From assembly GCF_011170085.1 (NCBI RefSeq), contig NZ_BLLI01000001.1, positions 1 through 64,000 on the forward strand: a stretch of DNA of 64,000 bases, in the 5' to 3' direction. The translations under genes were made by a program, and so were the position numbers. Under the pieces are notes generated by a model, which ran no database searches, was not told the origin of the DNA, and saw only the letters and a program-made list of their open reading frames with translations. Below are positions 7,218-8,841 of this stretch, in pieces (position 1 is the stretch's first letter; the number at the start of each line of letters is the position of its first letter). This DNA is from Pseudolactococcus hodotermopsidis. GTDB lineage: Bacteria; Bacillota; Bacilli; Lactobacillales; Streptococcaceae.

Positions 7218-8153
7218 TTATACCATATTTTGCTGAAATTTTGTCATAAAACTTTGCACAATTTTCGCATTTGTTAGACTTCTCAGAGGAAAAACAAATG
7301 GTACTTTATTTTGTTGCGATTTTTGTAAGATAAAAATTGCTTTTTGATTATTTTCAGTGAACATGTTATCTGGTAATGTGACAACAGCAGCTACTCGCGC
7401 ATAGTTCTGCAACCATTTTTTCAATAAATCAGCCTGAGGACTTGACAAGAGATTGCTCGGCGCAAGGAAAATCGCATAACCGTCGTCTTTGAGGTACTTA
7501 AAACCTTGTGCCATGAGCAAATGATGGGCGTAAGTCTGCTCAGTGCTACTGCCAACACATGAACGTTTGGCTACGGCATTATCTGGATAATAACCAACTG
7601 GCAAATCTGAAATCAGCAAGTCAATTGGCGTAGTCACTTGCGGTCGAACTGCATCAAGCTGCAGAAATTCAACATTTGTCTGAATAACATCCGCAATGCT
7701 TGCCGATAAATCAATCATCAAATCATCTATTTCAAAGCCAGTATACTTGATATTTTTATCAGAAATCCCCGTCAAAATCGTCTCAGCAAGATTGCCTGTC
7801 CCAGAACCTAGCTCCAAAATTGCTAAATCGGGCGCACCAAATAAAGTTTCAATCATAAAATTGATAATATAACCAATCGCATCAGGTGTCAACTGATGAT
7901 TGGCTTGCAAGTGCATAGCCTTAGCGCCTTTGATAAGTACAAACTGATAAACTTTTTGCCATTCCGATTTGGTCAACTTGAGCGAGCGCAAGTTATCGTT
8001 ATTTTGCTGCACATCATCTGAGATCGCCTGTCCTAGATAACCAACATTTTGCTCAATCAAAGCCTCATAAAAGTGGGTTGCCAAACGTGTTTCGAGCAGA
8101 TGAACATTTGCTAAAAGTAAGCCAAACGCTGTTTCAATTTTTTCCATAGTCAT
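7218..8153 (-). CDS. YtxK-like class I SAM-dependent methyltransferase
   Basis: 311 aa. Rossmann methyltransferase with motif I LELGSGTGNLAETIL (about residues 112-126). The catalytic motif is DLLISDLPVGYYP, in the position of the NPPY/DPPY motif of N6-adenine methyltransferases but with an altered sequence. The N-terminal 100 residues are helical. Proteins of this type sit next to ackA in many Firmicutes; the substrate is not established. It lies about 100 nt upstream of ackA in the same direction and could be cotranscribed with it. Confidence 0.85.
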   Translation of the reverse strand: MTMEKIETAFGLLLANVHLLETRLATHFYEALIEQNVGYLGQAISDDVQQNNDNLRSLKLTKSEWQKVYQFVLIKGAKAMHLQANHQLTPDAIGYIINFMIETLFGAPDLAILELGSGTGNLAETILTGISDKNIKYTGFEIDDLMIDLSASIADVIQTNVEFLQLDAVRPQVTTPIDLLISDLPVGYYPDNAVAKRSCVGSSTEQTYAHHLLMAQGFKYLKDDGYAIFLAPSNLLSSPQADLLKKWLQNYARVAAVVTLPDNMFTENNQKAIFILQKSQQNKVPFVFPLRSLTNAKIVQSFMTKFQQNMV

Positions 8154-8201: not shown

Positions 8202-8234
8202 TTTAAGGTTAATTTAAGGTTGCCACGTTATAAT
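8202..8234 (+). promoter_or_regulatory. CiaR-type promoter (TTTAAG-N5-TTTAAG plus -10)
   Basis: Perfect direct repeat TTTAAG (8202-8207), five bases, TTTAAG (8213-8218), then 10 bases and a consensus TATAAT (8229-8234). This is the architecture of promoters activated by the response regulator CiaR in streptococci. No ordinary -35 box is present, as expected for an activator-dependent promoter. Confidence 0.75.
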
Positions 8235-8240
8235 GTATTC

Positions 8241-8308
8241 ATTCCTAAAATATTTTTCATAAAAACTCCCTTTTACAACCGAGACTTCCTAACTCGGTTG
8301 TTTTTTTG
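8241..8308 (+). ncRNA. Candidate CiaR-dependent small RNA (csRNA-like)
   Basis: From the expected start about 7 nt after the -10 box, a transcript of roughly 65-70 nt would end at a strong terminator (8276-8308, arms ACAACCGAG and CTCGGTTGT plus T7). It has no start codon with a ribosome site. The single-stranded part contains TTTTTCATAAAAACTCCC, complementary to a ribosome site followed by AUG. The terminator loop contains ACTTCCTAA, another anti-ribosome-site segment. Streptococcal csRNAs have the same features (CiaR promoter, short length, paired anti-SD sites). The gene is intergenic, opposite to its neighbours. Confidence 0.65.
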
Positions 8309-8349: not shown

Positions 8350-8841
8350 TTATAATTCTGAATTTTCCCAAACCATATCATACCAACTCGCACCACCATG
8401 AGTAGATTGAGATTTGCCCTCATTAATAAAACCATACTTTTCATAATAGGCAATCAGATAATCATGGCAGGTCAAATTGATACCATCACGTTTTTGCTCG
8501 CATGCAACGGCTTTTAGCGCTGAAATTAAGCGCGTACCAACAGCCTTTCCTTGAAATTTCAAGTCAACTGACAGACTTGTCACAGCAATAAAACCACCAG
8601 TTGCAGGATTTTTAACAACTGTTTCAAACAAATCATCAGTTAGATGACGTGCGCTAATCGCTGGTCCTTCGATATAACCCGCGATTTGACCCCCAATTTC
8701 AGCAATCAAAAAAGTATCTGAAATCTTGCTAATACGCCATTTCATTGCTTCATATGTCGCTGCCTCTTCAGGTGCAAAATTCTCCGATTCAATCCGATAA
8801 ATCTCGTTCAAATCTGCACTTGTTACATTTCTGATTAACAT
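8350..8841 (-). CDS. GNAT-family N-acetyltransferase
   Basis: 163 aa. Acetyl-CoA-dependent acetyltransferase fold: N-terminal IRNVTSADLNEIYRIE, central beta strand FIAVTSLSVDLKFQGKAVGTRLI with the pyrophosphate-binding Q-G-K-A-V-G-T segment (about 103-112) and the C-terminal YEKYGFINEG. The closest general type is the arylalkylamine/RimI-like group. The substrate cannot be deduced. It is a single gene between murC and the small-RNA locus, with a GAAGGAGAAG ribosome site. Confidence 0.85.
   Translation of the reverse strand: MLIRNVTSADLNEIYRIESENFAPEEAATYEAMKWRISKISDTFLIAEIGGQIAGYIEGPAISARHLTDDLFETVVKNPATGGFIAVTSLSVDLKFQGKAVGTRLISALKAVACEQKRDGINLTCHDYLIAYYEKYGFINEGKSQSTHGGASWYDMVWENSEL

Follow-up and report, generated by a model that had tools for sequence, protein, structure and literature searches.

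A predicted CiaR-activated small RNA (csRNA) gene and its regulatory setting in the Lactococcus raffinolactis group

Do CiaR-activated small RNAs (csRNAs) occur outside Streptococcus? CiaRH, and hence the csRNAs, has been regarded as confined to that genus (PMC3091779, 2010; PMC8186281, 2021), and the question is raised by a short region near the start of a Pseudolactococcus hodotermopsidis contig (NZ_BLLI01000001.1), the first 64,000 nucleotides of which form the window analysed here. Our comparisons support the csRNA interpretation given in the initial annotation of this DNA. The locus is very probably a CiaR-activated small RNA (csRNA) gene, one of three in the genome, and by nearly every sequence criterion the candidate is a csRNA outside the reported range. 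The argument is built on the promoter, sibling copies, conservation, synteny, orthologues of CiaR and CiaH, and the CiaR boxes that precede ciaR and htrA, all of which can be read directly from the DNA. No description of csRNAs in Lactococcus was found in the open-licence literature, and an earlier report elsewhere is possible.

The promoter is made up of two CiaR half-sites TTTAAG (8202-8207 and 8213-8218, plus strand) separated by the N5 spacer GTTAA, and a -10 box TATAAT (8229-8234, plus strand) 10 nt past the second half-site, so that positions 8202-8234 read TTTAAG GTTAA TTTAAG GTTGCCACGT TATAAT. This is exactly the csRNA arrangement of NTTAAG-N5-TTTAAG, 10 nt and then a -10 box, and the layout that the initial annotation had claimed (TTTAAG-N5-TTTAAG, 10 bp, TATAAT) is present without deviation. 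Within the window the pattern TTTAAG-N5-TTTAAG-N10-TATAAT has this sole match even with up to two mismatches permitted, against an average of 0.01 in shuffled sequences (n = 100); under a Markov model the full pattern would be expected 1.4e-5 times per window. The exact pattern occurs three times in the genome and its reversed control not at all, the Markov estimate with the first T left free being 0.0013 for the entire genome. The promoter sequence at 8202-8234 is confirmed and stands far above chance. In an alignment of 39 copies out of 12 genomes, T3 and A4 of the first half-site, TTA.G of the second and TATA.T of the -10 box are invariant.

Downstream of this promoter a csRNA-like small RNA of ~67 nt is predicted (8241-8307, plus strand), its putative start at A8241 being placed by the 7-nt spacing from the -10 box and by the C directly before it; the RNA contains no ATG. 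In the predicted fold (MFE -12.3 kcal/mol, z -3.9) it is single-stranded until a terminator hairpin at 8275-8301, in good agreement with the transcript of about 68 nt ending in a terminator that had been proposed earlier. The intrinsic terminator (8275-8307, plus strand), which falls within the 250 nt from the -10 box allowed for csRNAs, has a 9-bp stem (8275-8283/8293-8301) followed by a T run, and was overlooked by a simple terminator scan because its loop is 9 nt long. Near the 5' end lies UUCCUAAAA (8242-8250, plus strand), a second conserved element that was absent from the initial annotation; it is near-invariant in the genus and agrees in eight of nine positions with the nonamer [A/C]UCCUAAA[A/C], a csRNA signature (Marx 2010, PMC3091779). 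It is followed by UUUUUCAUAAAAACUCCC (8253-8270, plus strand), in which an anti-AUG (CAU) and an anti-Shine-Dalgarno (CUCC) are both unpaired in the predicted fold, and the core of TTTTTCATAAAAACTCCC at 8253-8270 is near-invariant across the genus. The proposed complement of a ribosome site and AUG is therefore present with a conserved core, whereas the further anti-Shine-Dalgarno stretch ascribed to the loop of the terminator can be seen here (CUUCC, 8285-8289) but lacks conservation, as copies at the same chromosomal place bear different loops.

Three csRNA genes were found in the genome, and all 12 genomes of the genus (the L. raffinolactis/piscium/plantarum group) carry between 2 and 8. 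The sample includes L. raffinolactis (G009), L. insecticola (G011), L. chungangensis (G008), L. piscium (G007), L. laudensis (G005) and L. plantarum (G001/G004), and BLASTN with a 112-nt stretch recovered several relatives in each of the 11 other genomes (best E values 2e-10 to 1e-24). The 39 copies show little or no variation in the half-sites, the -10 box, AUUCCUAAAA and UUUUCAUAA. Downstream of UUCCUAAAA the copies share UUUUUCAUAA-ACUCC, the complement of a ribosome site plus AUG; past UUUUCAUAA most have CUCC or a similar pyrimidine stretch and then a hairpin that varies from copy to copy, the terminator being retained with changed sequence. Promoter and anti-SD/anti-AUG segment are thus both retained in 12/12 genomes, which is the conservation that the initial annotation had asked for. 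The position is also stable: in at least 11 of the 12 genomes the window copy has the same neighbours, a divergent adenine-DNA-methyltransferase-like gene (7218-8153, minus strand) and a convergent GNAT acetyltransferase gene (8350-8841, minus strand), the comparison of wider surroundings covering all genomes but G004.

A scan of Rfam at gathering threshold gave no match at the locus. In a relaxed scan of 201 bases the csRNA family (RF02379) was the best of 4227 families with 27.8 bits, aligning over UCCUAAA-U-UUUUUCAUAA, and 6 of 16 sibling loci matched it with 29.6-37.1 bits. The gathering score of 57 bits is a curated search threshold and not a biological trait; a score of 27.8 bits lies below it, yet the family ranks top, which argues for a divergent csRNA member whose filing as csRNA rests on other features. 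The covariance search that had been recommended therefore pointed to the expected family at a score under its cut-off. RF02379 also weakly matches unrelated species among the control genomes, so that it is uninformative on L. lactis.

A csRNA would need its activator, and the absence of a CiaR homologue had been named as an observation that would count against the proposal. The genome encodes seven OmpR-type regulators, one of which (G000 C33:5872-6537) carries the helix VVEVYMSKLRKKL, compared with the recognition helix VVEVYVSKVRKKL in Streptococcus. This protein shares 72% identity with its orthologue in S. entericus and 78% with that of Streptococcus sp. HF-1907 (other regulators at most 40%), as well as 93% with CiaR of L. 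insecticola. In Streptococcus sp. HF-1907 the gene follows a pepN-like aminopeptidase gene, the order known from pneumococcus. In the tree this CiaR groups with streptococcal CiaR, the support of 100/99 belonging to a wider clade that includes regulators of another Lactobacillales family (f3, by inference Enterococcaceae). The adjoining kinase (454 aa) has 44-46% full-length identity to streptococcal CiaH, and CiaH identity among Streptococcus is 47-86% (Marx 2010, PMC3091779). Both CiaR, as an orthologue with conserved recognition helix, and CiaH are thus encoded. Of 147 Streptococcaceae genomes sampled, 142 have a CiaR relative and 141 a match to the RNA model; the RNA is missing in 3/5 CiaR-less genomes vs 3/142 CiaR-bearing ones (Fisher p 4e-4, with related genomes counted as independent). 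NCBIfam gave no CiaR family among the matches listed, and none of the 60 best PDB entries was a CiaR. LlrA was considered as the lactococcal CiaR and rejected, as LlrA is CovR (PMC11244767).

The initial annotation had suggested a search for further promoter sites. A blind scan of the genome for the layout TTNAG-N6-TTAAG-N10-TANNNT returned five sites (reversed control: one): one at each of the three csRNA genes, one at ciaR and one at htrA. Upstream of ciaR the site reads CTTCAG-GTTAA-TTTAAG-N10-TAAAAT, and the htrA box is located at G000 C32:18604-18635; the box together with the HtrA protein was confirmed in seven genomes, and a near-identical box in four more, implying that CiaRH would control HtrA in lactococci. 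In S. pneumoniae htrA is a direct CiaR target (PMC12826053) and the expression of CiaRH is under feedback from the system itself (PMC8317062). Taken as predicted CiaR sites, the five are the core streptococcal CiaR regulon.

For the locus we infer transcription, CiaR dependence, translational repression and target identity along the following lines. Phosphorylated CiaR would bind both TTTAAG repeats, which take the place of a -35 box, and recruit RNA polymerase to TATAAT. The resulting RNA would present two unpaired stretches, UUCCUAAAA and UUUUUCAUAA-ACUCCC, and pair with target mRNAs at the Shine-Dalgarno sequence and start codon, with additive effects of the sibling RNAs. By analogy with pneumococcus the RNA may block ribosome access, and translation of the targets would be blocked at the same time as CiaRH, HtrA and the sibling RNAs are jointly induced. 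Pairing predicted against 624 start regions (about 37% of the genome) gave a top-20 mean of -18.1 kcal/mol compared with -16.4 kcal/mol for 30 shuffled RNAs, none of which reached the value of the RNA; the median was less distinct (2/30 shuffles reached it), and some of the signal is due to a complementarity that start regions show in general. The best predicted site (-22.8 kcal/mol) precedes a gene (G000 C10:18389) whose product was recognised by eye as an amino-acid-binding lipoprotein of an ABC transporter; the start region of a DeoR-like regulator (G000 C24:1518) is also among the best predicted. Exact complements of the anti-TIR stretch were no commoner at start regions of the organism's own genome than those of a reversed control. 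A perfect 17-nt complement of the anti-TIR stretch was observed at the start of a flotillin-like gene in L. raffinolactis (G009 C1:68915) and in G006 (C5:61242), and this 17/17 match was not found in the window's own genome. The start region of ciaH is likewise predicted to pair with the RNA (-15.6 kcal/mol), which may form a feedback loop.

The same data can be read in other ways. The CiaR-controlled promoter may be real and the RNA may act mainly by binding a protein via UUCCUAAAA rather than mRNA, a role for the nonamer that was raised by Marx 2010 (PMC3091779) and that would account for its conservation across genera in which targets should differ. We regard this as unlikely, as the anti-AUG/anti-SD stretch is about equally conserved, and as regulation in S. 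pneumoniae is restored when csRNAs and comC carry compensatory mutations, which shows pairing with comC (PMC4507080). It is far less probable still that the minus strand encodes a leader peptide or other short open reading frame in the conserved stretch, in place of a plus-strand RNA gene: GGGAG-ATG-AAA does resemble a Shine-Dalgarno sequence and start, followed by a 10-codon frame (MKNILGMNTL), but the T run varies from 4 to 7 bases among the copies and so shifts the frame, many copies have early stops, and the conserved CiaR promoter, -10 box and terminator all lie on the plus strand. We give equally little credence to a chance promoter combined with either a mobile element present in repeats or a terminator serving both flanking genes. 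Several copies per genome and the hairpin where the GNAT gene ends would fit such an origin; however, only the promoter and the 5' part of the RNA are common to the copies, the hairpins differ in sequence, the location between these neighbours is kept throughout the genus, and a chance promoter is excluded.

As a predicted csRNA, the lactococcal RNA shares with ccnA-E of S. pneumoniae (RF02379) the CiaR repeat, the 10-nt gap to the -10 box and the C before the start, together with the nonamer type, the unpaired anti-SD and CAU anti-AUG, a terminator, several siblings and, in the genome, CiaRH and CiaR boxes at htrA and ciaR. It differs in its length (~67 nt vs 87-151 nt), in a nonamer that starts with U and sits at the very 5' end of the RNA, and in missing the 5' stem-loop that csRNAs of pneumococcus have; a csRNA of G015 (genus g5, by inference Streptococcus) likewise has an extra 5' stem-loop that is absent from the lactococcal RNAs. 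LhrC1-5 of Listeria, under LisRK, are also multicopy, controlled by a two-component system of envelope stress and equipped with C-rich anti-SD motifs (PMC4132741), but they have three UCCC sites and a different structure, and RF00616 scores 19.2 bits at the locus, against a cut-off of 110. Catalogues of lactococcal sRNAs, for L. cremoris MG1363 (PMC13109727) and for the LLMGnc RNAs (PMC5603721), likewise hold small, intergenic, stress-linked RNAs of Lactococcus, among them sLLM1042+, with predicted pairing to SD/start regions. PMC13109727 mentions neither CiaR nor csRNA, and the main text of PMC5603721 does not mention csRNA.

The carrier genus of the predicted RNAs is the L. raffinolactis group, and Lactococcus sensu stricto has a close version: L. 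garvieae, L. petauri, L. termiticola, L. hircilactis and L. fujiensis bear CUUCCUAAAAAUCUUUUCAUAAAACUCC versions behind the same promoter. In f3, multicopy RNAs (up to seven per genome) follow the same promoter layout and have a CAU(A)CCCAAA 5' end, a UUUUUUCAUUUCUUUCUCCC stretch that includes CUCC, and a terminator; these genomes encode a response regulator that shares 56-60% identity with CiaR and has the helix VVEVYMS[NH]LRKHL. We lean slightly towards the csRNAs being an ancient Lactobacillales regulon and not a streptococcal invention. The Lactococcus group would gain a whole CiaR regulon of sensor, htrA and sibling RNAs, and some of the many sRNAs that await characterisation in lactococci would be offered a name and a regulator. 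Lactococci would also provide a harmless, food-grade system for studies of csRNA function, and it can now be asked which parts of the RNA are old (the nonamer and the anti-TIR stretch) and which are streptococcal additions (the 5' stem-loop). Among the genomes surveyed, G117 has 14 csRNA model matches and contains a tandem array of six csRNA genes (C14:9800-10800) with a period of 114-116 bp, each with its own CiaR-type promoter, and G016 and G041 (genus g6, same family) have 14 model matches apiece.
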